From: Brevibacillus ruminantium
GTDB taxonomy: Bacteria > Bacillota > Bacilli > Brevibacillales > Brevibacillaceae
Reading direction: 5' to 3'
Length of the DNA stretch: 64,000 nucleotides
NCBI RefSeq assembly: GCF_023746555.1
Contig: NZ_CP098755.1
Span: 1,747,001 to 1,811,000, forward strand
Shown here: positions 37,596 through 56,048 of the stretch, piece after piece
Numbering within the stretch: the first letter of the stretch is position 1
Layout: every line of letters starts with the position of its first letter
Notes under the pieces: model-generated
Databases searched by the model: none
Told to the model about the DNA's origin: nothing
The model's input: only the letters and a program-made list of their open reading frames with translations
Made by a program: the position numbers and the translations under genes

Positions 37596-37671
37596 GATCC
37601 GGTAGCTCAGTTGGGAGAGCACCATCTTGACAGGGTGGGGGTCGCTGGTTCGAACCCAGTCCGGATCACCA
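37596..37671 (+). tRNA. tRNA-Val (GAC)
   Basis: 76 nt with acceptor stem GATCCGG/CCGGATC, D-arm AGCTCAGTTGGGAGAGC, anticodon loop TTGACAG (anticodon GAC), T-arm GGTTCGAACCC and an encoded CCA. Its 3' end is followed by an integrase remnant and the AT-rich island, so it is the probable integration site. Confidence 0.95.
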
Positions 37672-37798: not shown

Positions 37799-38915
37799 TC
37801 AAGCTTGTTTTTTGAACAAGGCTTGGCTTATTGCATTCGCTGCCTCGACCTGCATGCTCGGCTGAATATGACTGTACGTGTCAAGAGTCATTCTCGTATC
37901 AGTATGGCCTAAGCGATCAGCAACTACTTTGATGTGAATCCCTTGTTTAAGCAATAAGGTTGCATGCGTATGTCGCAGATCGTGGAAGCGGATCGGAGCC
38001 ACTCCAGCTTGCTCGATCAATCGTTTCCAGGTTCTCGTTAGGTTACGCGGGATAACTGGCGTACCGACTGATGTACATACAACCAGATCGTGGTCCACAT
38101 ACTTGTCTCCTGCTTGTAGTTTCTCCTGGATGATCAGGCTTCGGTGCTTCCTTAATGCTAAGAGAGTTTCAGTCGGGAGGTGTATGGCGCGGATACTTGA
38201 TTTAGTTTTTGCTTCGGTTTGCAGCTCCTTACCGTCATGGCTTAGTGTCTGACTGATACTCAAGCTGCAATTTTCAAAATCAAGATCCTTCCAACGGAGA
38301 CCGAGAATCTCTCCCTGCCGCATTCCTGTAGTAATTGCAAGAAGGAAGGCAACGTATAGACGTTCTTCTTGTGCTGTAGCAAGAAATTTTTCTACCTCAT
38401 TTACATCCCATACCTTCATTTCCTGTTTGGAAATGCGAGGCTTCTCCACTAACTCCATGGGATTACGTGCTATCATATCCAGTTTCTTAGCCTTTTCCAG
38501 CGATCCGTTCAGCACGTCGATGACCTTTTTGATATAGGAAGTAGCAAACCCTTTTTCACACAAGGAGTTCACAAACTTCTGAAGTGTAAAAGGGTTGAGT
38601 TGTTGAATGGATAGTGTGCCAAGTTCGGGAATGATATGTGAGTTGCAGATCGTCACATAGTTCGTGAACGTCTGTCTCCTAACGCTATTTCGTTTGTTTT
38701 CAAGCCATTCTGTCAGGAAGTCCTTGAAAAGCATCTTTACAGGCTCAATATAGGAGCCTGAGTTGACCTAGTTGATGACCTTGGCTAGTGCGGCTTCGGC
38801 TAGCTTCTTTGTTTCAAAACCCCGCTGCTTCTTCCGTTTGCGCTTATCATCGGCTCCTTTTCCCATATCCACGACAAAGTACCACAAACTTCCTTCTGGA
38901 TTGTCAACACCAAAC
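37799..38915 (-). pseudogene. Phage/ICE-type tyrosine integrase, disrupted
   Basis: The 311-residue open part from ATG 38734 keeps the core-binding domain and the complete catalytic set: R in TTGMRQGEILGLRW, HDLRHTHATLL, H in DRLGHTDTRMT and the Tyr in DTYSHI. Upstream in the same frame the missing arm-binding (AP2-like) domain continues (SLWYFVVDMGKGADDKRKR, then FETKKLAEAALAKVIN), but one TAG at about 38770 separates it. The extreme 5' end is cut by the IS3 element at 38916. So the gene carries both a nonsense mutation and an insertion. The shortened form might retain some recombinase chemistry but probably not normal site choice. Confidence 0.85.
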
Positions 38916-40511: not shown

Positions 40512-41375
40512 ATGAAGCAACTTAAAATAAGAGCTAAAAATCTAATTTATAAATTTGATGTTAGTCATACATTTGTAAAAACAGAAAAGACAGCAATGAC
40601 TCTTAATTATGAGGATGGAAAATATCGGCAGAAGGAACTGGTTAGAATTATCAGAGAAACAGTCGTTCATTTTGCCTTAACTAAGGAAGAGATTCGAAAG
40701 TATAAAGAGGATGATGATTTCGGCGAGATGCAAAGGAAGGCTTGGGAGCGAATTTCAAAAGCTCATAAAAACTCGAAAGGTGATTTTGGGGAGCTATTAC
40801 TCTTCATATTGCTAAGTATATTCTTTCCATCAGAGAAATTTGTGACAAAGGTTAGACTACGAAGTTCGACAAAGGAACAGATAAAAGGATTCGATTGTGC
40901 CCATTTTTCTATTGAAGATGGAGAGGTAATTCTATGGCTTGGTGAAGCTAAATTTCATAATAGGTTTAGTAATGCTATTAGTGGGGCGATTGATTCTATA
41001 AAGGAACATTGCAATATCGACTACCTTAGGGATGAAATAAGCATTTTAGGTTCCAATATTGAATTAAATGAAGAATTTCAAGAATATGAAAAAATAAATA
41101 ATATACTCAATGGTGGAGTTACTTTAGATAAAATTAAAATAAGAATACCAGTTCTATTAACATATGACTGCAATGTAATTCCTAAACATCAGGATATTGA
41201 AGATGCACTATTTATTGAGGAGATGACCGAAGAGTTCATAAGTAAATATAAAAACATTGATTCACAACAACTCTCTCTAAAACCAAATATTGAAGTTTTA
41301 TTTATTATTGTCCCATTTGAATCAGTAAGTGAAATTAAAGAAGAAATTCAAAAATTGGAAGAGGCGATGAGATGA
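40512..41375 (+). CDS. hamA: Hachiman defence nuclease HamA (DUF1837)
   Basis: The 287-residue protein has the DUF1837 layout: a helical N-terminal part (KGDFGELLLFILLSIFFPSE near residue 97) and a PD-(D/E)XK-like core, FDCAHFSIEDGEVILWLGEAK at residues 127-149, giving D, E and K. It is followed 4 bp into overlap (ATGA) by a large helicase, which is the diagnostic pair of Hachiman. In studied systems HamA is a nuclease held inactive by HamB and released on DNA damage during phage infection. GGAGG precedes the ATG. Confidence 0.9.
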   Translation: MKQLKIRAKNLIYKFDVSHTFVKTEKTAMTLNYEDGKYRQKELVRIIRETVVHFALTKEEIRKYKEDDDFGEMQRKAWERISKAHKNSKGDFGELLLFILLSIFFPSEKFVTKVRLRSSTKEQIKGFDCAHFSIEDGEVILWLGEAKFHNRFSNAISGAIDSIKEHCNIDYLRDEISILGSNIELNEEFQEYEKINNILNGGVTLDKIKIRIPVLLTYDCNVIPKHQDIEDALFIEEMTEEFISKYKNIDSQQLSLKPNIEVLFIIVPFESVSEIKEEIQKLEEAMR

Positions 41376-43597
41376 ATCCGTTTATTAGCAAGGAAAAATT
41401 AGAAATCGCCAAAAAATTACTAGATAGATTAAAAAGATATGATGCTTTAGAGAATAAAGAATTCAGGACTATTTTGGAAACGGCTTATTATTTATTGTCA
41501 TCTAAAGATGATGAATACTATAATTTAGGGCTATCGATTATTTGTCATGTGGCTGAGAATAGGCCTACCGATGAATTTGTTCATCAACTACTCTTTGATT
41601 GTATTATTGAATCAAGAGTATTTCTGTATCATCAGATGTATAAAAAGTTGGATAGTAAATATGGTGAAACTATTGAACATGGGTCTTTTGACATGTTCAG
41701 CGAATCGTTTTACACACTAAACACTGGAACAGTATTGACACGCGACCAAAAACGTGTTTTTGAAGATTTTAAAAGGTTTAGAAGGCTTGTTGTTAGTGCC
41801 CCAACATCATTTGGAAAGTCTAGAATTATCTCAGAAATAATAACGCATAATTCATATAACAATATTGCAATTATATTACCGACAATAGCATTGTTAAACG
41901 AAACATATCTGTCATTAAGGAAAAATCCAGCAATTAGTCTAAGATATAAACTAATCAATACTCTAACTCAATCTTTTGGTGATTCTAGTAATATTTTTAT
42001 CCTCACACCGGAAAAAATGGACCTCTTGTTAGATTCATACCCACAATTAAATATAGATTTTTTTACAATGGATGAGATATACAAAATACAAGATGATGAC
42101 GACAGAAAGCATGTGTTTACTCATTGCTTGTATCGCCTTTCCAAAATGAACGCCGATTTTTATTTAATAGGACCTTATTTTCAAGATTTCAGTAAAAAGT
42201 TTTTAGAAAGAACAAACGCCAAATTTAGAAGATATTCGGCAGAAATTGTCCAAAAGGACACAATAGATATTTCAGTTATTAATTATCATGAAGAATTTAA
42301 TGTTTCCACACATAAATTTAAGAAATTAAAAGATAATGATAGAAATTTAATTAATATTGCCAAAAAAGTTGACGGGCAAACACTTGTATATTTGGGACGA
42401 AAAGATACGGTTGAAACAAGAGCAAAGAGACTTGCTGAAAAACTAGAAGGCTCTGAACAAAGTAGTGAACTTATAGATTATATTAAAACAACAATTAATG
42501 AAGATTGGTCTTTAGTTCACTGTCTACAAAAGGGGGTTGCTTTTCACCATAGTGCAATTCCTAAGTACATTCAAACAGAGATTGTAGACGCCTTTAATAA
42601 TGGAAGTATTGACATACTTGTTTGCACATCAACTCTTACAGAAGGGGTAAACACGTCTGCCAAAAATATTATGATTTTTGATAATACAAAAGGTGATAAA
42701 CCATTAACTGGATTTGATGTAAAGAATATAAAAGGCCGGGCAGGAAGATTTTTGTCCCATTTCGTAGGTAGGGTAATTGCTTTGGAACCACTAAGTGAGG
42801 AGAAAGATAAAGAGAGCATCGATTTTAGTTACTATGATAATAAAAGCCTCTCTCCTGAAGAAGCGATTCAAGTAGACAAAGGTGATTTATTTGATGAAAA
42901 TTTAAAAAATAGAAACGAAATGGAAAAAGTCTTAGGAGAGTGGAATATTCCAATTGAATTAATTAAGAGAAATAAATTTATTCCTATTCATAATCAAGTT
43001 TCATTAATTAACGAATTACGGTGCGATCCCAATATTATGCCATATCTATTATTTGCATCTATCTATCCCAAAAAAGAACAGTTTAATTTGATATTGTTCT
43101 TATGCCATCGTCACTTGTTTAACGATAAAGATAAGAATGATAGGAATTTCTGGTTGGGTAATCTAGGCAGGCTAACAAAATTTTATATTTATCGCTCACC
43201 TTCTCTGAAAGAATTAATAAACACTCAGAACGGTAAAAGTATCGATACAAAAGTGCGTAACGCATTCGCACTAATAAGTAAATATTTTGAGTTTGCATTA
43301 CCAAAATATTTTTCTACTTTCGAACAAATCTTCAATTTTGTCTATCGAGAGAAATATGGTGTTCAAGATGCGATTAGCTTAAAAGCCCTTATTACGAAGT
43401 TAGAATTTGGCTACGTTGATAAGCATGAAATTGCTCTTAAGGAAGCGGGAGTACCAGTGAATATTATCAACAAGATATCTAATGGGTTTCTTGATTGTGA
43501 TAGTATTGACAAAATTAAGGCTAAATTAGCTTTGAATCCAAATTTAACAGGGAACCTATCACAGTATGAAAAAAGGATTTTGGAAAAGTATATTTGA
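41372..43597 (+). CDS. hamB: Hachiman defence helicase HamB
   Basis: A 741-residue superfamily 2 helicase. Motif I reads APTSFGKSRI near residue 143, motif II MDEIYK near 233 (DEIY rather than DEAD), and motifs V-VI lie in LVCTSTLTEGVNTSAK and IKGRAGRFLS near 454. A long C-terminal helical domain follows. The start overlaps the hamA stop. Family work describes HamB as the sensor that detects aberrant DNA and frees HamA. Codon use is AT-rich like hamA, unlike the core genome. Confidence 0.9.
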   Translation: MNPFISKEKLEIAKKLLDRLKRYDALENKEFRTILETAYYLLSSKDDEYYNLGLSIICHVAENRPTDEFVHQLLFDCIIESRVFLYHQMYKKLDSKYGETIEHGSFDMFSESFYTLNTGTVLTRDQKRVFEDFKRFRRLVVSAPTSFGKSRIISEIITHNSYNNIAIILPTIALLNETYLSLRKNPAISLRYKLINTLTQSFGDSSNIFILTPEKMDLLLDSYPQLNIDFFTMDEIYKIQDDDDRKHVFTHCLYRLSKMNADFYLIGPYFQDFSKKFLERTNAKFRRYSAEIVQKDTIDISVINYHEEFNVSTHKFKKLKDNDRNLINIAKKVDGQTLVYLGRKDTVETRAKRLAEKLEGSEQSSELIDYIKTTINEDWSLVHCLQKGVAFHHSAIPKYIQTEIVDAFNNGSIDILVCTSTLTEGVNTSAKNIMIFDNTKGDKPLTGFDVKNIKGRAGRFLSHFVGRVIALEPLSEEKDKESIDFSYYDNKSLSPEEAIQVDKGDLFDENLKNRNEMEKVLGEWNIPIELIKRNKFIPIHNQVSLINELRCDPNIMPYLLFASIYPKKEQFNLILFLCHRHLFNDKDKNDRNFWLGNLGRLTKFYIYRSPSLKELINTQNGKSIDTKVRNAFALISKYFEFALPKYFSTFEQIFNFVYREKYGVQDAISLKALITKLEFGYVDKHEIALKEAGVPVNIINKISNGFLDCDSIDKIKAKLALNPNLTGNLSQYEKRILEKYI

Positions 43598-45309: not shown

Positions 45310-45338
45310 GCCTTTATAAAATAGTAAGGGCTTTTTTA
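45310..45338 (+). terminator. Rho-independent terminator upstream of the McrB cluster
   Basis: GCCTTTA pairs with TAAGGGC around an 8-nt loop, followed by TTTTTT. It insulates the McrB cluster from read-through out of the IS region. Confidence 0.7.
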
Positions 45339-45384
45339 TTTCTGAGAACAACGAAACCCACCACCCCCCCTCCCTAACAATATT

Positions 45385-45393
45385 TGCTATAAT
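45385..45393 (+). promoter_or_regulatory. Extended -10 promoter of the McrB cluster
   Basis: TGCTATAAT forms an extended -10 element 33 bp upstream of the McrB start. The expected -35 position is a run of C, so the extended motif must carry the promoter. Confidence 0.5.
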
Positions 45394-45425: not shown

Positions 45426-47645
45426 ATGGCCTTACCCATAGCCCTTACAAATATCTTCAAACACAAACAAAAATCATACAAAATGGTCCTAGTCCTCTGC
45501 CTTCTCGACGAACTAAAAAAAGGAAACCCATCCGTGACCTTGGACACTCTCAAACAAAAATTCCTCACGTACTACCAAAATCGAGAAGCGCAAGGACTGG
45601 TAGTTGATCCACCACCCTCAAAACTTAGTAAACAATGGCGCGAGATTACCTTAGCCCAAATCCACCACATCATCCAGACGCCGATCCAAGCTCTATCTCA
45701 AATTTTAATAAATGATCGCGACCATAAAGAGTATGGCTTCCGACCAGAAATTTTAGAAGAACTACGTACACCACAAATCCAAGAACTGAGCGAGTACACG
45801 ACACAAGAACTGGAGAAATACTTTGATCAACTGAATCCATCCGTTCCATTGCGTGATTATTTAGATACAATCCTATCTACCTACCTGGAAACGAAGCTAC
45901 AGCCTTTCAAAGAGAACGATCTCGGAAAACTAGTAAGACAGACGATTCCAATTGATCTTTCAAAACTGCCGTTCTTCCCAGATGAATGGAAGGCGCAAGG
46001 GTCTGTAGGACAAGGTAATTGGGCAGATGTACCTTGGATTGCGATTATGGATAAAAGAATCACTACCACTACACAACAGGGTGTCTACGTCGTCTATCTC
46101 TTTTCCCAAGACATGAGTGCAGTTTATTTAACTTTGGCCCAAGGTGTAGCAGAACCGTTAAAACAAGGAAAAAGAGTGGGGTATGAGTATTTAAGAAGAA
46201 AGGTTCAGGAGATTCGCTCCATTATTGCCCTAGACGGCTTCCAAAAAGATGAGAACATTCAGCTAACGGCGAAGGGGATTGGAGAAGATTATCAAGTATC
46301 CACGGTAGCCTACACGAAATATGAAGCAGGCAACTTGCCATCTAATCAACAACTCCTGACCGATCTGCATTCGATGCTGGAGTATTATCAAGAGTACGTG
46401 GAATACAGCCTAGCAGATGATACAACTACAACAAGCGAATCCAGTATATCTTCTAGTAAGAAGGAGCCACTCCTTGTGAATGATTCAGACGTAAGAGAAA
46501 CGATAGATACCATTAAAACATACATACGACAAAGAGGTTTCCACTACCCTGATCATTTGATCGAAAACTTCTACCTTTCCATGAAGACAAAGCCGTTTGT
46601 AATCCTCGCGGGTATTTCAGGTACGGGGAAAACGAAACTAGTGAAACTGTTTGCCGAAGCTCTCGGAGCAACTAGCGAAAACAGGCAATTTCGACTTATC
46701 CCGGTTCGACCAGACTGGAGTGACCCATCTGACTTGATCGGGTACAAAGATCTTACGGGAACTTTTCGGCCAGGTCCACTGACAGAGGTTCTCGTAGAAG
46801 CATCTAATCCAGATAACGAGGATAATGTCTATTTTATTTGTCTCGATGAGATGAACTTAGCACGTGTGGAACATTACTTTAGTGATATCCTCAGCTTGAT
46901 GGAAACACAGGAGCGTAAAGATGATCGCATTGTTACGAATCCACTAATCTCGACGAATCAGTTGGGCGAAGATGACCGTGTTTTCTATGAGGGACTGTTC
47001 ATTCCAAGTAATGTCGTGTTGATTGGTACCGTTAATATGGATGAAACGACGCACCCATTTAGCAAGAAGGTTTTGGATCGTGGGAACACGATAGAATTTA
47101 ATTATATCCAACTTGATAATTTTCCTGATGCCGAAGAAATCTACGAATCAGATTCAGAGCGTGGGGTACCCGCATCTTTTCTGTCAAGCGAGTACATTAC
47201 ACTACAAGAGGCATACAAAGATTATTCGAATCTTATCAAGGAATCTACTGAGAAGCTGATAAAAATTAATCTCGTTCTCGAAAATATCCACGCACACATC
47301 GGGTTTCGTGTAAGAGATGCGATTTGCTTTTACATGGTTTACAATGAACGTTTTCATCTGATGACAAAAGACGAAGCATTTGATTTTCAATTGCTACAAA
47401 AAATACTGCCCCGCATACAGGGAAGTAATTTGTCTGTGAAACGCACGCTAATGGAGCTCTTGAAAATCACATTGGGGGATCCCCGATTACAAGTGGACGA
47501 GCTGATGGGAGATGCTGCGTTGTTATACGAGTTAGATTTGCAAAAGGAATATCCAAACGCACCATATAAGCAAAGTAGTAGAAAACTACTCTATATGCTC
47601 CGGAGGCTTGAAGAAGATGGATTCACATCGTTTTGGGTCTCTTAG
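45426..47645 (+). CDS. McrB-like AAA+ NTPase with MrcB_N (DUF3578) domain
   Basis: The 739-residue protein has a helical N-terminal region (about 1-140) of unknown fold, and then a DUF3578/MrcB_N-type domain (about 150-340; GNWADVPWIAIMDKRITTTT). The AAA+ module has Walker A GISGTGKTK near residue 397, Walker B FICLDEMNLARVEHYF near 470 and GTVNMDETTHPFSKKVLDRG near 538, the NxD block of McrB. McrB proteins are GTP-driven motors that recognise modified DNA through the N-terminus and bring in a nuclease. The next gene, overlapping by 29 bp, is its DUF2357 nuclease partner. Confidence 0.88.
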   Translation: MALPIALTNIFKHKQKSYKMVLVLCLLDELKKGNPSVTLDTLKQKFLTYYQNREAQGLVVDPPPSKLSKQWREITLAQIHHIIQTPIQALSQILINDRDHKEYGFRPEILEELRTPQIQELSEYTTQELEKYFDQLNPSVPLRDYLDTILSTYLETKLQPFKENDLGKLVRQTIPIDLSKLPFFPDEWKAQGSVGQGNWADVPWIAIMDKRITTTTQQGVYVVYLFSQDMSAVYLTLAQGVAEPLKQGKRVGYEYLRRKVQEIRSIIALDGFQKDENIQLTAKGIGEDYQVSTVAYTKYEAGNLPSNQQLLTDLHSMLEYYQEYVEYSLADDTTTTSESSISSSKKEPLLVNDSDVRETIDTIKTYIRQRGFHYPDHLIENFYLSMKTKPFVILAGISGTGKTKLVKLFAEALGATSENRQFRLIPVRPDWSDPSDLIGYKDLTGTFRPGPLTEVLVEASNPDNEDNVYFICLDEMNLARVEHYFSDILSLMETQERKDDRIVTNPLISTNQLGEDDRVFYEGLFIPSNVVLIGTVNMDETTHPFSKKVLDRGNTIEFNYIQLDNFPDAEEIYESDSERGVPASFLSSEYITLQEAYKDYSNLIKESTEKLIKINLVLENIHAHIGFRVRDAICFYMVYNERFHLMTKDEAFDFQLLQKILPRIQGSNLSVKRTLMELLKITLGDPRLQVDELMGDAALLYELDLQKEYPNAPYKQSSRKLLYMLRRLEEDGFTSFWVS

Positions 47646-50034
47646 AGAAAGTGTAGAGTTGTTGCGAATCGAGACAGATGTCTTTGACCTTTATATAAAG
47701 GGCAAACCGTTTCATCCAACCGTAGAGAAACTGCAGCTTCATCGGGAGGACAGCTTAGAATGGGAGCCAGCGACGTTACGGATATCCAGTGATTCTCGGC
47801 TACTTACGATAAAATCAAAGCTTGTTTTTTCACCCATCACCGGTGCTTTGACGAATATAGAAGAGGGGGAAGCATTCCCCATCTTTTTCGAAACACAGTC
47901 GTATGAATTTGTTCTGGTGCGTAAACAGGAGAAGGATATCACTTTTTTTCATGAAAATGTTCATCTTCGCCAGGCTGTAAAGCCTCTTGGAAAAGATATT
48001 TTATCTGGAATATTACATTTTCAAAATGAAGTTGGATTGACTGAAATCGTGATTCAAATGAATCGTCAGCCAGTTTTAAAAATTGAGCTCGAAATCTTTC
48101 CCGTTAAAATGGATTACCGCAGGGATTATCAAAACATCTTACGTGAAGTGAATGAACAGGTGTACAACCTGGCTTTCGATTTCATGCGTAAGACACATCA
48201 AATGACTGGGCTTACCGAGACTCATTCACAAAGTTTGACTGAATTTTACTCGATTCTACAACATGTCTTCCAACAATTAATGGGTGCGATCGAGAGAATT
48301 AAAGCAAACCCTCACCATAAGCTAGAAGCCCAGCAAAAAGTCATGGACGCATCTCGGGTAAAGCGGGTGAGCAGGCATAATCAAGCGTTTCTTAGCAAGA
48401 ATCCTCACACCCTAATAGAAGATCATGCAAACGGATTTTTAAGAATTCAGGACAAGCTGTACCGTCCGTCTTTATTAAAAGAAAGTAGACGAGTTATTGA
48501 TTACGATACGGTAGAGAATCGTTTTGTTCGCTGGATGCTAGTAAAGATCGTTGCAAAACTAAAAGAAATTCGCCTCCGTGTTGAAACAAGTAGCCGTAAT
48601 CGCGACGAGGTATTTTTACAAAAGCTTGATCGGATGGTAGAACAAATAAGGCGGGTACTACAACTCGATTTTCTAGCTGCCGCAACAGGGATGAGTCAGC
48701 TGTCTGTTACGTTAGTTTTGCAAATGGCTCCCGGATATAGAGAAATTTATAAAGCGTATCTGACCCTGATGAAGGGGCTGACGATCCAAGGGGAGCTCTC
48801 GAAGCTGTCCATGAAAGACTTAGCGAAATTGTACGAATACTGGTGCTTTTTGAAAATCAATCAAATCCTGAGTAAGAAATACAAGCTATTAAAACAAGAC
48901 ATTGTAAAAGTAAATAAAAGCGGCTTGTTCGTTACATTGGATCGTAGCCAGTCAGCAAGCATGGTTTATGAAAACCCAGCGAACAAGGAGCAGTTTACTC
49001 TTTATTACAATGCGCTGCCGTCTGAAGACAGAAGAAAAGTACCTACTTTATCACAGCGACCAGATAATGTATTAACTCTGAAAAAAAGCGACTCTCAACA
49101 AGAATTCAAGTATGTCTTTGATGCAAAATACAGACTCAACCCGGCTTACGAAGGAACAAGCTACCATCAGAAATATAAACTTCCAGGTCCCGAGGAAGAC
49201 GATATTAATACCATGCATCGTTATCGTGATGTGATCGTCTATTTAGATGGCACGACACAAGAATATGAGCGAAGCATGTATGGGGCCTATGTACTTTTCC
49301 CTTATCCAAATGAAGAACAGTTTCGTCAGCATCAGTTCTATAAAAGTATTGAACTAATCAATATCGGTGCTTTCCCATTCTTGCCAGGGGCTACGTCTCT
49401 TTTCGAACAATTCTTAGATGAGCTCATTTTAGATAGCCCTGAAAAAGCGTACGAACGGTCTACTCGACCACGTGGTACGGATCGCTACTATCAGGATAAA
49501 CTGGGAAGCAAGAATGTATTGGTTGGGTCTCTGCGAACAGGGCAGTTGGATTTGGCCCTAAAGCACAAATTTTACCATGTTCCTTTAAAAAACCTAAAAG
49601 ATCATAAAGTATTGACACAGATTGAGTATGTTGCATTGTGCCAGTCCAGAAAACAGTACGGGGAAAATGGAGGTATCCATTGGTACGGCTCCATAACTGA
49701 CTGGAAAGTAGTGCGCAGAAAAGAGATTTCAGAAAGAATGCCACGTACTGGAACAGAAGAAGAATTGTACGTACGATTCGAAGTCAACGAATGGCTAAAA
49801 AGAGAAAAACCAATCCATTTCGGTGGACAAGGAATCTATACCCTCCTTCTGACGACCAAGTACATGTTTGATCGTGCAGATGAAATTAGTGAGCTGCGGC
49901 TAGACGATGAAGAGCAGCTAAAACTATGGCGCGAGAAACGTCGTAGTGGGAAAGTAAAAGTTGTCCTAGATCATGAGTATATCGATTTGGCCAAGAAGGT
50001 TCGTGTGGAAGAGGTACCGGAGAATCATAAGTAG
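47617..50034 (+). CDS. DUF2357 McrC-like nuclease
   Basis: 805 residues from ATG 47617, which has a CGGAGG box 10 bp upstream and overlaps the McrB gene by 29 bp. TTG 47608 is too close to that box. The protein has a beta-rich N-terminal domain, a long helical middle (about 160-400) and a PD-(D/E)XK nuclease near residue 500 (FKYVFDAKYRLNP). DUF2357 proteins take the place of McrC in many McrBC-like systems. It should cut DNA when loaded by the McrB motor. AT-rich codon use matches the neighbours. Confidence 0.85.
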   Translation: MDSHRFGSLRESVELLRIETDVFDLYIKGKPFHPTVEKLQLHREDSLEWEPATLRISSDSRLLTIKSKLVFSPITGALTNIEEGEAFPIFFETQSYEFVLVRKQEKDITFFHENVHLRQAVKPLGKDILSGILHFQNEVGLTEIVIQMNRQPVLKIELEIFPVKMDYRRDYQNILREVNEQVYNLAFDFMRKTHQMTGLTETHSQSLTEFYSILQHVFQQLMGAIERIKANPHHKLEAQQKVMDASRVKRVSRHNQAFLSKNPHTLIEDHANGFLRIQDKLYRPSLLKESRRVIDYDTVENRFVRWMLVKIVAKLKEIRLRVETSSRNRDEVFLQKLDRMVEQIRRVLQLDFLAAATGMSQLSVTLVLQMAPGYREIYKAYLTLMKGLTIQGELSKLSMKDLAKLYEYWCFLKINQILSKKYKLLKQDIVKVNKSGLFVTLDRSQSASMVYENPANKEQFTLYYNALPSEDRRKVPTLSQRPDNVLTLKKSDSQQEFKYVFDAKYRLNPAYEGTSYHQKYKLPGPEEDDINTMHRYRDVIVYLDGTTQEYERSMYGAYVLFPYPNEEQFRQHQFYKSIELINIGAFPFLPGATSLFEQFLDELILDSPEKAYERSTRPRGTDRYYQDKLGSKNVLVGSLRTGQLDLALKHKFYHVPLKNLKDHKVLTQIEYVALCQSRKQYGENGGIHWYGSITDWKVVRRKEISERMPRTGTEEELYVRFEVNEWLKREKPIHFGGQGIYTLLLTTKYMFDRADEISELRLDDEEQLKLWREKRRSGKVKVVLDHEYIDLAKKVRVEEVPENHK

Positions 50035-50099
50035 GGGCGTTTCCTGAAACAGCGCTCCTACTTCCGTTCATGTAGTGATTAATTGGAAAGGATTATGCC

Positions 50100-50930
50100 A
50101 TGCTATCTAAAATATTTAATATCTTTAAAAATACTAAAAAACCGATAGAGCAACATGCAATCGAAAAGACGCCAAGTAAGAAGATGGATAACCAAAAATC
50201 AATACGAAAAGGAGAGCTAGGAGAGTATAAGGTTACGATTCAGTTAGACCAAATGCCAAAGGAGTATAGGCATTTATCGGACTTACTTCTCCCCAATCCA
50301 AAAGCTAAGTCAGGGTATTCACAAATTGATCATATCCTCGTTACCCCGTACGCTATTTTCATCATCGAGACGAAAAACTATTCGGGCGAAATTAAGGGTG
50401 GAAGAGAGGATAAGCATTGGACGGTAAATAAGCGATTTAAAATGTTAAATCCCTTTTATCAAAATTATGGTCATATCGAATCTATCCGAAGCATTATCCA
50501 GGTAGAGAAAGAGCATTTTGTTTCACTCGTGTCATTTACCAGACGCTGCACATTCAGTGTTGATCCAGAGCTTAGGAAAATTGGCTCAAATGATTTAATC
50601 GTATACGATATTGAGCTAACAGAATTTATTCAACGGAAAATCAACCGCTTAAGGGAATTGAACAAAGAACATAGGTTTACCGCGGAACAAATAGAGAGCA
50701 TGTATGAATTATTAAAGCGTGAAAATATTACAGATTCAAAAGCTAGGGCTTCTCATGTTGAAGGGCTTAAAAGTGGTGGTAAGCTCACGGATAAAAACCA
50801 TGCAGTTACTGAACATACATGCGTAGACTGCGGGAAAACAGTCACTGAAAAAATCGCCAAGTTTTGTTTGGCAAATCAGTCAAGATTTCAAGGGAAAGTG
50901 TATTGTTACGAGCATCAGAAGACCCATTAA
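50100..50930 (+). CDS. NERD-domain protein with C-terminal zinc-finger-like tail
   Basis: A 276-residue protein. The nuclease-related NERD domain (about 35-150) shows KGELGEYKVTIQLDQMPKE, the acidic DHILVTPYAIFIIETKNYSGEI block with a restriction-nuclease-like D-x(n)-E-x-K (ETK), then the Trp-containing strand KHWTV. The tail has CVDCGKTVTEKIAKFC and a later Cys, a likely zinc site. NERD proteins are probable nucleases or DNA-end-binding factors. It follows the DUF2357 gene after 65 bp and precedes the MazG-like gene by 20 bp, so all four are probably co-transcribed. Confidence 0.85.
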   Translation: MLSKIFNIFKNTKKPIEQHAIEKTPSKKMDNQKSIRKGELGEYKVTIQLDQMPKEYRHLSDLLLPNPKAKSGYSQIDHILVTPYAIFIIETKNYSGEIKGGREDKHWTVNKRFKMLNPFYQNYGHIESIRSIIQVEKEHFVSLVSFTRRCTFSVDPELRKIGSNDLIVYDIELTEFIQRKINRLRELNKEHRFTAEQIESMYELLKRENITDSKARASHVEGLKSGGKLTDKNHAVTEHTCVDCGKTVTEKIAKFCLANQSRFQGKVYCYEHQKTH

Positions 50931-50950
50931 CGGTTGAATAGGAGAAGATT

Positions 50951-51313
50951 ATGGACGAACGTACAACGATAAGCGACCTTAAATTACGAGTTCAAAAGTT
51001 TTGTGAGGATAGAGATTGGGATCAATTTCACAATGCGAAAGATCTAGCGATCGGAATTATTACGGAATCATCTGAGCTACTCGAGCATTTTCGCTTTAAA
51101 TCCAAAGAGGAAATGGAAGGTTATTTTGTAGACGGCCATAAAAGAGAGGAAATCTCTGAGGAATTGGCTGATGTATTGTTTTTTGTCCTAAGGTTTGCTC
51201 AAATGTTTAACATCGACATTACGCAAGAACTCATAAAAAAAATTGAAAAAAATAATCAGCGTTACCCTGTAGAAAAATGTAAAGGCGCGAATAAAAAATA
51301 TTCAGAGCTGTAG
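50951..51313 (+). CDS. MazG-like dCTP pyrophosphohydrolase (RS21-C6/dCTPP1-type)
   Basis: The 120-residue protein has the all-alpha NTP pyrophosphatase signature: FCEDRDWDQFHNAKDLAIGI with ESSELLEHF (ExxE) at about residues 37-46 and EELADVLFF (ExxD) at about 70-77. DRDWxxFH is the dCTPP1/RS21-C6 hallmark rather than that of full-length MazG. Such enzymes cut (d)NTPs to monophosphate, and the dCTPP1 branch prefers dCTP and 5-modified dCTP. Placed directly behind an McrBC-like nuclease set, it may deplete modified dCTP in infected cells. Confidence 0.85.
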   Translation: MDERTTISDLKLRVQKFCEDRDWDQFHNAKDLAIGIITESSELLEHFRFKSKEEMEGYFVDGHKREEISEELADVLFFVLRFAQMFNIDITQELIKKIEKNNQRYPVEKCKGANKKYSEL

Positions 51314-51526
51314 TGTGTGTACATGCAATCTGTGTGGGGTGCGTAAAATAGACAGCTTTCGATGTGGCAGTATTCGCTTAAATACGCAGCTTTCGAACAG
51401 CGCGAACAATCTGTAACCCAATCGCCTCTTAACTTGTCAGGATATTCGAGCAATTGATGCGAACGTATTTTCTTAATATCGACAAAATAAGACCTGCCTA
51501 CTGCTGCTTTTTCAGTTGAAATGCAG

Positions 51527-51532
51527 TATAAT
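51527..51532 (+). promoter_or_regulatory. -10 element of the m5C methyltransferase gene
   Basis: A perfect TATAAT lies 31 bp upstream of the methyltransferase start. The -35 region (about 51504-51509) is poor. Confidence 0.45.
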
Positions 51533-51562
51533 GGATTTATATTTTTTAACGGGGTGAGTGTA

Positions 51563-52672
51563 ATGATTTTCAGAAAAGGTGAGTTCTTTAACGGCCCCGG
51601 CGGTCTTGCATTAGGAGCAAAGATGGTTAGGGTTGTTGATAAAAACGGCGTTGAATACAGAGTTGAGCACGAATGGGCTAACGACATAGATGAATCGGCA
51701 TGTCGTACATTTATTCATAATATTTGTCCTGACCGCCCTAACTCAGTTATCAATAAGGATGTTCGTGAACTAGATATTGAATCACTTGGAGAAATTGACG
51801 CGTTTACTTTTGGTTTTCCATGCAATGATTATAGCATTGTCGGAGAGAAAAAAGGATTGGATGGCAATTATGGCCCATTATATACTTATGGAGTCAAAGT
51901 TCTAAGGAAATTTCAACCCAAATGGTTTGTAGCTGAAAATGTGTCTGGCCTTCAAAGTGCAAATGAGGGACAGGCATTCAATATGATAATGAGAGACTTA
52001 ATGGAATCAGGCTACAAAATAACACCACATTTATACAAATTCCAAGATTATGGCATTCCTCAAACCAGACACAGAATAATTATTGTCGGTATCAGAGATG
52101 ATATAAACAAAGAGTTCAGAGTGCCTGCACCAACACACGGTGAAGGCAGATTACCTTATAAAACTGCAAAACAAGCCCTAACTGATCCACCTATTCCTGC
52201 TGATGCACCGAATAATGAACTTACTCGACATACTTCTAAAGTGATTGAATTCCTGAATCATATTCCTCCTGGTCAAAATGCGTGGTTCGAAGAAATTCCT
52301 GAACATTTGAGATTAAACGTCAAGGGTGCAAAAATGAGCCAAATATATCGTCGTTTACACCCCGACCAACCGTCTTATACCGTGACAGGCAGCGGCGGCG
52401 GCGGTACACATATGTACCATTGGAGTGAACCTCGTGCGTTGACAAACAGGGAACGTGCGCGAATACAAACCTTCCCAGATAATTTTGTTTTTCTCGGCGG
52501 TAAGGAAAAAGTCAGACAACAAATAGGAATGGCCGTTCCGCCAGAAGGTGCAAGAATCATTATTGAAGCTATACTGAAAACTTTCGCAGGAATCGAATAT
52601 GACAGTATTGAAGCAAAATGGAATGCAAATGAATTTGTATTCGAACCCGAACTCGAATTGATTTCTGTATAA
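51563..52672 (+). CDS. DNA (cytosine-5) methyltransferase
   Basis: 369 residues from ATG 51563 (GGGGTGAG box). The m5C methyltransferase motifs are present: I near FFNGPGGLALGAKM, IV with the catalytic Cys in GFPCNDYSI (PCN instead of the usual PCQ), VI in AENVSGLQS, VIII in QTRHRIIIVG, then a short variable region and IX-X in FPDNFVFLGG and QIGMAVPP. It transfers a methyl group from SAM to C5 of cytosine. It converges on an AlwI-type restriction operon, so it is probably the protecting enzyme. The small variable region suggests a short recognition site. Confidence 0.92.
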   Translation: MIFRKGEFFNGPGGLALGAKMVRVVDKNGVEYRVEHEWANDIDESACRTFIHNICPDRPNSVINKDVRELDIESLGEIDAFTFGFPCNDYSIVGEKKGLDGNYGPLYTYGVKVLRKFQPKWFVAENVSGLQSANEGQAFNMIMRDLMESGYKITPHLYKFQDYGIPQTRHRIIIVGIRDDINKEFRVPAPTHGEGRLPYKTAKQALTDPPIPADAPNNELTRHTSKVIEFLNHIPPGQNAWFEEIPEHLRLNVKGAKMSQIYRRLHPDQPSYTVTGSGGGGTHMYHWSEPRALTNRERARIQTFPDNFVFLGGKEKVRQQIGMAVPPEGARIIIEAILKTFAGIEYDSIEAKWNANEFVFEPELELISV

Positions 52673-53371: not shown

Positions 53372-55000
53372 TTAATTCCTTTCCACTTGATTGGTTGCTA
53401 CGCGTAAAAATTCACCGACAGTTGAATATCCACGGTTTTGTATTGCGTTCAAAAATAACTGAACCCGTTCATGCTTTGGCAAATCGTTATCAATACAGTA
53501 GTCCAAGAAGCCAAGTAAAACATTTGCACTTAGCATAATTCCTTTGATATCTCGGTCGGGAATGGCCCGTTTGGTAAGGGTGCTGATTTTCTCAAGGTTT
53601 TTTTCACCACTCCAATCCGCCGCGGTAACGTATCCGAAGAAAGAAACTTGGCGTCCATCATAGCCGTCATAGTTCGGGAGATATTCGGATGCCATATGTG
53701 AAGCCAAATGCGCCGACAAAGGAAATTTTGTGCGGTAATTCTTCGCGTCAATAATCCCCATAAGCGAACCTTCGTATTTAAGCAATATCTCGATTTCAGT
53801 TTCAACGTTTGCAAGCGATTTGGGACGCATTTCAACTTCGAATCCGATTGCCTTGAAGACTTCGCCCGTTTTATCTTCAAACACAAGATTATCTTGCTCA
53901 TTCAGATATCCTTCAACAAAGTCATTATTGAGTGCTTGATGCGTGATTTGTTTAAGGTCGTGGGCGTGTTTTTCGGCTTCCTTCGGCGGAAATTCGTTCA
54001 TAAGAATTTCTTTCAAGTCGTCGTGAGTCAACTCGTCCAAATCGGGATAATCTGATAGTAATTCACGAATCTTATTCGCGGTCTTCGATTTGTTCGTTGC
54101 AGGTTTAACGTCTCCGTAACTGCTTGCCTTGTAGCTTTCGATATCCAAACCGTTATTTTCCGCCATGCGTTGAAGCGAAATAAGGTAACGAGAGTTGAAC
54201 GGATATCGGTAATCGTACATTTCGATTTCTTCGGAAACCTTCTTCGAGTTAGATGGGTCAACACGAAGGGCTTCACCACGAATGTATTCGACAAGACCGG
54301 TGTAGTCGCAAATCAACATGAACGTATGTGCCACGTCACCATGCGCGATCTCAAAATCTCTTGCGCCTTTATCTGAACGTTCGCGATGGTCGAAGTTTTC
54401 AGCGATTTCTCGCTTCATTTGCGCTTTGTCCGCTGGGCTTGCGCTTCTAAAGGTAAGAATCTTATCCGTTACGGGAGCCAACTGGTTGTCGTTCTGTGCC
54501 GTTAAAACGAAATAGGTGATTTCTTCTTTGGTCACGTAGTAGTTTAGTCGGGCTTGATTTGTCAGTTTGATAAGGAACCGTGCTGGACGAATTCGGAAAG
54601 TCGATTCAAATTGCGGTCGGAAACCCGATTCAAGAAAGTAAGCATTTGGGATTTGAAGGGTCAGGATTTGTTTTGTTACGTTATCCCGAACCCGTTCACC
54701 TTCAAGAATCTTCTTGCCAGCTTTGGTCAGTACCAAGAACCCTTCTTCATCCGTATAGACGTAAGCAAATGTTTTTAACATAGCCGCCCAGGTCCGCCCG
54801 CCCGAACCATCATTACTGATGTTTTCGCGTTTTACTCCACGGGCATTCAATGCGCGTTCGTAGTTAAGGTGGGCTTGACGATTGCCCGACCATTGAACGG
54901 TAAAACCATTCGTTGCATCCCATAAAGCGAGAAGTGCGTCACGATGGAATTTAGGGTCACGTTCAGGACGTGTGATAAACCAAATTTTGCGTTCTGCCAT
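53372..55000 (-). CDS. AlwI-family type IIS restriction endonuclease
   Basis: A 542-residue protein resembling the AlwI/BspD6I-type enzymes: N-terminal WFITRPERDPKFHRDALLAL, KTFAYVYTDEEGFLVLTKAG near residue 74, YFVLTAQNDNQLAPVTDKIL near 161 and YDYRYPFNSRYLIS. The C-terminal cleavage part has the PD-(D/E)XK-like sequence GIIDAKNYRTKF near residue 413. Members bind short asymmetric sites and cut beside them. It lies between a small helical protein and a second nuclease in one tight minus-strand operon (gaps of 4 and 5 bp). The exact site cannot be read from sequence. Confidence 0.85.
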   Translation of the reverse strand: MAERKIWFITRPERDPKFHRDALLALWDATNGFTVQWSGNRQAHLNYERALNARGVKRENISNDGSGGRTWAAMLKTFAYVYTDEEGFLVLTKAGKKILEGERVRDNVTKQILTLQIPNAYFLESGFRPQFESTFRIRPARFLIKLTNQARLNYYVTKEEITYFVLTAQNDNQLAPVTDKILTFRSASPADKAQMKREIAENFDHRERSDKGARDFEIAHGDVAHTFMLICDYTGLVEYIRGEALRVDPSNSKKVSEEIEMYDYRYPFNSRYLISLQRMAENNGLDIESYKASSYGDVKPATNKSKTANKIRELLSDYPDLDELTHDDLKEILMNEFPPKEAEKHAHDLKQITHQALNNDFVEGYLNEQDNLVFEDKTGEVFKAIGFEVEMRPKSLANVETEIEILLKYEGSLMGIIDAKNYRTKFPLSAHLASHMASEYLPNYDGYDGRQVSFFGYVTAADWSGEKNLEKISTLTKRAIPDRDIKGIMLSANVLLGFLDYCIDNDLPKHERVQLFLNAIQNRGYSTVGEFLRVATNQVERN

Positions 55001-55502: not shown

Positions 55503-55628
55503 AGCGTACACCTCCCAATCAATTCCAGTATCGTCCGCTGGTTCTAATAGTAAACGAAGTTCTGTCGTCCATAATCAGCTTATGAGGTGATATTTTCGTA
55601 CAGAAACAATTTTGTTGGGGGTGAGTAT

Positions 55629-56048
55629 ATGACTGACATGTTTACAAAAGAGCAACGCTCAAAAAATATGAAGGCTATACGTTCAACGGGGTCAGCGTTG
55701 GAGAACAAAGTCACAAAGGAATTATGGAGAAGAGGGTTCAGATTTAGAAAAAACGTCAGAAAACTAATGGGTAATCCTGATATAGCAATCCAGAAGCACA
55801 AAATTGTTATTTTTCTTGATTCATGTTTTTGGCATTCGTGTCCAATTCATGGGAATATGCCGACTACAAATGTTGGGTATTGGGAAAAAAAGCTGAAGAG
55901 GAACATGGATAGGGATATTGAAGTAAAAGAATATTATTCGAATAAAGGGTGGAAGATTTTACGAATTTGGGAGCATGAAGTGAAGAATGATTTTGAGGGT
56001 ACATTGGAAAAAATATCGAATTTCATACTCCAGTCCAAGCAATATTAA
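55629..56048 (+). CDS. vsr: Very short patch repair endonuclease Vsr
   Basis: 139 residues from ATG 55629 (GGGGGTGAG box). Vsr landmarks are complete: EQRSKNMKAIRSTGSALENKV in two parts at the start, the catalytic Asp in LMGNPDIAI, FLDSCFWHSCPIHGNMP with the zinc-site Cys and His residues, and WEKKLKRNMDRD. Vsr nicks 5' of the T in T:G mismatches that arise when m5C deaminates. It accompanies the m5C methyltransferase 3 kb away, though the restriction operon lies between them. Confidence 0.95.
   Translation: MTDMFTKEQRSKNMKAIRSTGSALENKVTKELWRRGFRFRKNVRKLMGNPDIAIQKHKIVIFLDSCFWHSCPIHGNMPTTNVGYWEKKLKRNMDRDIEVKEYYSNKGWKILRIWEHEVKNDFEGTLEKISNFILQSKQY

Follow-up and report, generated by a model that had tools for sequence, protein, structure and literature searches.

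A candidate modified-DNA restriction operon in Brevibacillus ruminantium combining an NxD-type McrBC core with NERD nuclease and DCTPP1-type pyrophosphatase genes

Results

Genes of the locus

The window analysed here, a 64,000-nucleotide stretch of Brevibacillus ruminantium DNA, contains four genes in a row on the same strand. The first encodes a McrB-type AAA+ GTPase of 739 aa (45426-47645, +; per Pfam, motif search, an AlphaFold model and PDB comparison) and the second a McrC-type protein with DUF2357 and PD-(D/E)xK nuclease domains (47617-50034, +; per Pfam and alignment). These are followed by a NERD-domain PD-(D/E)xK nuclease of 276 aa (50100-50930, +; per Pfam and DNA comparison) and a DCTPP1-type all-alpha NTP pyrophosphatase (MazG-like) of 120 aa (50951-51313, +; per Pfam and a PDB sequence match). 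The McrB and McrC genes overlap by 29 bp, and gaps of 65 bp and 20 bp separate McrC from NERD and NERD from the pyrophosphohydrolase. The best start for McrC is the ATG at 47617 (ribosome-binding site ccggagg), which yields the 29-bp overlap, with a TTG at 47608 as a possible alternative. The GC content of the region is 0.38-0.43, versus about 0.52 in the flanking chromosome. A terminator-like hairpin with a T-run (45310-45342, +, with the hairpin placed at 45310-45331), by itself no evidence of function, was found by consensus scan between the operon and an upstream IS remnant, and a candidate extended -10 promoter (TGcTATAAT; 45385-45393, +) was picked out by eye 33 bp 5' of the McrB ATG.

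Re-derived coordinates thus bear out the first-pass annotation of this DNA as to four co-directional, AT-rich genes, their order, coordinates and spacing, and the terminator before the cluster, and the Pfam and PDB matches described below confirm its naming of the products (McrB with MrcB_N, DUF2357 nuclease, NERD protein and dCTPP1-type enzyme). The nearest named relative of the window genes is found in B. reuszeri, where McrB and McrC are 87-89% identical and the pyrophosphohydrolase is 81% identical; the window copy of the latter is intact and overall 78-81% conserved. This conservation across species shows that these are real genes.

The McrB and McrC core

The McrB protein retrieved Pfam matches to MrcB_N (6.6e-56) and AAA_5, and its architecture comprises a predicted winged-helix N1 domain (residues 1-135), an MrcB_N/DUF3578 reader (residues 149-325) and the AAA+ region, whose match to structures of E. 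coli McrB reaches 3e-9. It carries a Walker A motif (GISGTGKT), a Walker B motif (ICLDEMN) and the sequence VNMDE, which is the NxD variant of the Nx(x)D signature; an NxD motif was present in 28 of 28 relatives examined. An AlphaFold2 model of residues 1-343 (mean pLDDT 82) was searched with Foldseek, and the top matches were chains of the E. coli McrB DNA-binding domain on 5mC, 5hmC, 5fC and 4mC DNA (best E 0.0095, probability 0.99-1.0). Likewise, a VIA comparison of residues 139-330 with the E. coli McrB reader gave a Z of about 11, spanning 140 residues. The protein is therefore predicted to carry a modified-cytosine-reading domain, and the match of the modelled fold supports the earlier assignment of a McrB-type protein with an MrcB_N domain.

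For N1 (45426-45830), no convincing sequence relatives were detected in the PDB or Pfam. Its list of structural matches is dominated by ORC winged helices (Z 12) and also holds residues 96-238 of a ScoMcrA chain (Z 9.8) and, at Z 7.9, the Hga sulfur-binding domain, so N1 may be another DNA-modification reader or may simply have a common winged-helix fold. We also observed that the McrB proteins of two other loci (L005 and L011) have a clearly different N-terminal region, matching the window's N1 and MrcB_N poorly, with the same GTPase behind it. The McrB N-terminal regions are apparently interchangeable specificity modules.

The McrC protein matches the Pfam families DUF2357 (PF09823, 2.6e-61) and PDDEXK_7 (PF04411, 3.5e-49), and no match to the classical McrC family PF10117 was found. 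Its nuclease motif (RPD...DAK) is intact, with D483 and D502-A-K504 invariant in an alignment of 12 relatives.

The NERD and pyrophosphatase genes

The third product matches the Pfam NERD family (2.7e-24) and ends in a C-terminal zinc-like tail (CxxC...C...C). The fourth matches Pfam MazG-like (5.6e-13), and phmmer aligned its residues 5-120 to human and mouse DCTPP1/RS21-C6 in the PDB at 1.2e-19. The metal ligands E39/E42 (ExxE) and E71/D74 (ExxD) are all invariant in the family alignment, and the RDWxxFH motif is present with W23 and H27 conserved, which together uphold the dCTPP1-type identity first proposed for this small enzyme. By alignment, the positions corresponding to DCTPP1 residues W47, W73 and H38, which we take to be base-pocket residues, are partly kept, with W47 retained, W73 replaced by F and H38 by V.

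Island setting and comparison with relatives

The four genes belong to an island that begins with a tRNA-Val gene (37596-37671) and continues with an adjoining tyrosine-type integrase (37799-38734, -), the Hachiman genes HamA (40512-41375, PADLOC E 4e-116) and HamB (41372-43597, PADLOC E 3e-303), an IS256-type transposase remnant, the four genes themselves, a C5 methyltransferase (51521-52672, per Pfam), a Type II restriction enzyme that is AlwI/BpuJI-like (53372-55000, -) and a nuclease of Vsr type (55587-56048). The Hachiman pair (40512-43597) is complete and shares the island with the McrBC operon. Beyond the four genes, the Type II restriction-modification unit formed by the methyltransferase, the AlwI/BpuJI-like enzyme and the Vsr-type nuclease adjoins a system predicted to depend on modified cytosine, which implies that the site specificities of the two do not clash.

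In a second genome, from another genus of Brevibacillaceae (G031, locus L138), the same McrC-MazG cluster stands beside this tRNA pair and an integrase related to that of the window. We favour the view that the four-gene locus, which is carried on a tRNA-Val island in Brevibacillus, is mobile. Both G031 and B. reuszeri have McrC and MazG followed by a Schlafen-group-3 helicase, which in B. reuszeri lies almost directly 3' of MazG and which is absent from the window. G031 has a run of N, an assembly gap, at the McrB position (5566-7500 of L138), so no McrB is visible there; a 1424-aa frame that appeared to be a McrB-McrC fusion was rejected as an artefact of reading through this run.

When the window was compared with B. 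reuszeri DNA, the two blocks of homology ended at 50070 and resumed at 50939, the corresponding gap in B. reuszeri being only 16 bp long. The NERD gene is thus a clean insertion in the window or was lost in B. reuszeri. Among the relatives compared, the exact four-gene order was found in the Brevibacillus window only, and we therefore rejected the idea of a fixed four-gene unit, which the first-pass annotation had treated as a set.

Neighbours of the NxD/DUF2357 branch

To place these accessory genes in a wider context, 69 loci of this McrC branch were taken with their flanks from Bacilli and the wider phylum, and the flanks were scanned with profiles built from the neighbour genes, counting as a partner any same-strand match no more than 1.3 kb away. 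NERD was a partner at 9 loci (strand agreement 9/9), and 11 loci had an NTP pyrophosphatase partner, belonging to one or the other of two subfamilies. Seventeen loci had any NTP pyrophosphatase in the flanks, and all but one of these had a same-strand copy (16/17, p=2.7e-4). Within 250 bp, eight NTP pyrophosphatases were observed versus about 0.035 expected and six NERD genes versus about 0.017, the expected values being genome-wide rates that ignore defence-island clustering and shared descent. Parsimony on the McrC tree required at least seven changes for the NERD trait and at least seven for the pyrophosphatase trait, on a quick tree with some long deep branches and with changes that do not separate gain from loss. 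These repeated changes answer the matter of shared descent; island clustering is answered in part by the bias towards the same strand and by the crowding of partners into the immediate slots.

By contrast, when 20 classical McrBC loci of the same class were taken as a small control, no NERD, MazG or second-family pyrophosphatase gene was adjacent at any of them, although the second family lay about 3-6 kb away at two. The test that accompanied the earlier note, namely whether neighbours of the DUF2357 gene are random in related genomes, was thus run here and returned non-random neighbours. Nevertheless, around 50 of the 69 branch loci have neither partner, so neither NERD nor the pyrophosphatase is required.

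When 53 immediate neighbours that had not been chosen by family were scanned with Pfam, NERD came up four times, Mrr_cat four times, HIT three times, MazG-like twice and Nudix once, and a second, putative MazG-superfamily subfamily, which Pfam misses, was also present among the immediate neighbours. Nucleases and nucleotide-cleaving enzymes are therefore recurrent themes beside this branch. Separately, HIT-family and Nudix genes directly adjoin branch McrBC genes at L216, L219, L232 and L233, in the slot that NTP pyrophosphatases take elsewhere.

Recurrent and alternative architectures

The second pyrophosphatase family (about 104 aa) lies beside McrB or McrC at seven loci (L007, L014, L015, L136, L137, L241 and L246). 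Its members show the ExxE/ExxD pattern, and its close relatives are named nucleoside triphosphate pyrophosphohydrolase in RefSeq. Its similarity to the MazG superfamily is weak (PDB profile E 0.0055; hhalign E 3.3e-4, probability 38%), and Foldseek gave no matches for an AlphaFold2 model that was itself too weak (pLDDT 75). This family also occurs in unrelated contexts on plasmids, far from defence genes.

At the Fuchsiella locus L014 the order is NERD, NTP pyrophosphatase, McrB, an intervening gene and McrC, with a McrC identity of 41% and a pyrophosphatase of the second subfamily; this locus appears to reassemble the functions of the window operon independently. Three Paenibacillus loci (L121, L127 and L129) have NERD directly 5' of McrB, and L124 carries on one strand MazG, a SLFN-g3 helicase, a small gene, a PLD-helicase, NERD, McrB and McrC. 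At L038, L102 and L114 (a Priestia plasmid and two chromosomes), a DCTPP1-type gene follows an MrcB_N-HNH nuclease, a different protein that has its reader domain in common with McrB. We would like to note one further arrangement (L286, genome G246), in which NERD, an Mrr-like nuclease and a second-family NTP pyrophosphatase stand in a row behind a short, weak McrC match (31 aa, 25 bits); this may be a relative of the cassette that has decayed. Among mobile elements, viral contigs yielded four McrC relatives, all distant, and a single marginal match to MazG. Plasmids yielded only three distant DUF2357 relatives; the one in Caballeronia is accompanied by a C5 methyltransferase and Vsr, and the Mycobacteroides one by a site-specific DNA methyltransferase.

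Discussion

Proposed reading: Type IV restriction with optional accessory enzymes

The reading that we put forward, and to which we give an even chance, is that the locus is a Type IV (modified-DNA) restriction operon of the NxD/DUF2357 McrBC branch with optional, functionally linked nuclease and nucleotide-hydrolase accessories. That related bacteria have repeatedly placed such partners beside McrBC suggests that the partners work together. Their joint function, the substrates and the role of the pyrophosphatase that counts are inferences. McrB hexamers would bind invading modified-cytosine DNA through the MrcB_N domain, the DUF2357 stalk of McrC would trigger nucleotide hydrolysis and translocation, and the PD-(D/E)xK domain of McrC would cut the DNA, while NERD would serve as an auxiliary nuclease that attacks this DNA or the DNA resulting from the cut. 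The DCTPP1-type enzyme would hydrolyse dCTP, or more likely 5-modified dCTP, to the monophosphate; DCTPP1 itself hydrolyses dCTP, 5-methyl-dCTP and 5-formyl-dCTP in vitro (PMC7162842). The enzyme has a single domain and no visible regulatory domain, so action on modified dCTP would fit better than action on plain dCTP. Modified cytosine would thus be removed at the level of both DNA and nucleotides, and modified-cytosine phages would be starved, salvage of modified cytosine into host DNA, where McrBC would cut it, would be stopped, or both. The double attack on modified-cytosine phages proposed in the earlier note is one possible account of the data, which self-protection through pool cleaning or a leftover gene would explain as well.

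Alternative explanations

The DCTPP1-type gene might instead be part of a separate module with the Schlafen-group-3 helicase that landed by McrBC in Brevibacillaceae, the window having since lost the helicase and kept the enzyme as a leftover. The DCTPP1-type gene usually stands with this helicase, which lies within 400 bp on the same strand at 38 of 69 DCTPP1-type loci (including L002, L038, L040, L111, L116, L118 and L121-L124), from Bacilli to a haloarchaeal plasmid. The helicase is named SLFN-g3_helicase in Pfam and labelled DUF2075 in plasmid records, and we found no description of its pairing with a DCTPP1-type MazG in the literature searched. Its place right after MazG in both B. reuszeri and G031, and not in the window, also speaks for a leftover. 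Against this, the second pyrophosphatase subfamily fills the same McrBC slot in several lineages without the helicase, the MrcB_N-HNH and MazG pairs at L102 and L114 lack it as well, and the window's own pyrophosphatase gene is both intact and conserved. We consider a leftover unlikely, while giving it real weight.

We give similar, limited credence to a purely self-protective pyrophosphatase with no direct antiphage role, which would clear 5-modified dCTP salvaged from host methylation turnover or from cut phage DNA and so keep host DNA from acquiring McrBC targets. DCTPP1-deficient cells are hypersensitive to 5-methyl-deoxycytidine, the enzyme being termed a house-cleaning enzyme (PMC7162842). 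The C5 methyltransferase encoded next door makes self-protection plausible, and the HIT and Nudix families that take the same slot elsewhere include some house-cleaning enzymes.

Slightly more doubtful is a coincidence of the defence island, in which McrBC, NERD and MazG would be independent genes joined by shuffling at island hot spots. Defence islands do cluster genes without joint function, this one also carries Hachiman, IS remnants, the Type II unit and Vsr, and genomes hold NERD, MazG and second-family genes at other places too. The strong same-strand bias, the concentration in the immediate slots, the repeated changes on the tree and the absence of adjacent partners from all 20 classical loci argue against it. 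That the window's system acts on RNA as CoCoNuTs do, on the ground that its GTPase shares the NxD motif VNMDE with the CoCoNuT branch (PMC11090510), is highly improbable given the intact McrC nuclease motif, a predicted N-terminal reader resembling the McrB 5mC-DNA domain, and a Pfam scan of the window that detected no RNA-binding or HEPN domain of CoCoNuT type.

Extension to the branch and significance

The whole McrBC branch could be a two-level defence that cuts modified DNA and hydrolyses (modified) nucleotides, its architecture assembled several times independently. The hydrolases would come from different families, namely the DCTPP1 type, a second type of the MazG superfamily and perhaps HIT and Nudix, and NERD or Mrr would supply a further PD-(D/E)xK nuclease. 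We offer this broader proposal tentatively, as less likely than not. The recurrent link to modified-cytosine readers gives MazG-type enzymes a testable role, in which they would attack or clean up the pools of modified dCTP that surround Type IV restriction. Such a link would further hint at how a cell can harbour a nuclease directed at modified DNA while its own DNA stays safe, and it broadens McrBC from a pair of genes to a modular system of several enzymes.

Comparison with known systems

The NxD motif has been described for CoCoNuTs and for a methyltransferase-associated McrBC group that was left to a later publication (Bell et al. 2024, PMC11090510). The window resembles the latter group in its NxD motif, DUF2357 McrC and nearby C5 methyltransferase, a likeness drawn from these features; the text of that paper makes no mention of NERD or NTP pyrophosphatase/MazG partners. 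CoCoNuTs share an NxD McrB and a DUF2357 McrC with the window, which differs in its intact DNA-nuclease motif and predicted modified-DNA reader. The likeness of the small enzyme to DCTPP1/RS21-C6 is one of sequence, metal-ligand motifs and RDWxxFH, although the window enzyme is bacterial, sits in a defence operon and has a partly changed base pocket.

Defence by nucleotide depletion is known from dCTP deaminase and dGTPase. MazG domains are predicted defence genes that are as yet unvalidated (DefensePredictor, PMC13092281). The window enzyme is alike in being a nucleotide-hydrolysing enzyme in a defence setting, but it is single-domain and linked to a Type IV restriction core. In the literature searched, with most subscription journals outside it, searches for MazG with McrBC, Schlafen or defence islands found no paper that joins MazG with McrBC in this sense or describes the combination, and the earlier statement that no described system has this combination stands to that extent.

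A known layout close to this one is that of E. coli K-12 McrBC, in which McrB (DUF3578/MrcB_N and AAA+ GTPase) and McrC (DUF2357 and PD-(D/E)xK) are likewise adjacent with McrB first. Unlike E. coli K-12, the window has NxD in place of NxxD, an extra predicted winged-helix N1, a McrC without a PF10117 match, and accessory NERD and NTP pyrophosphatase genes.
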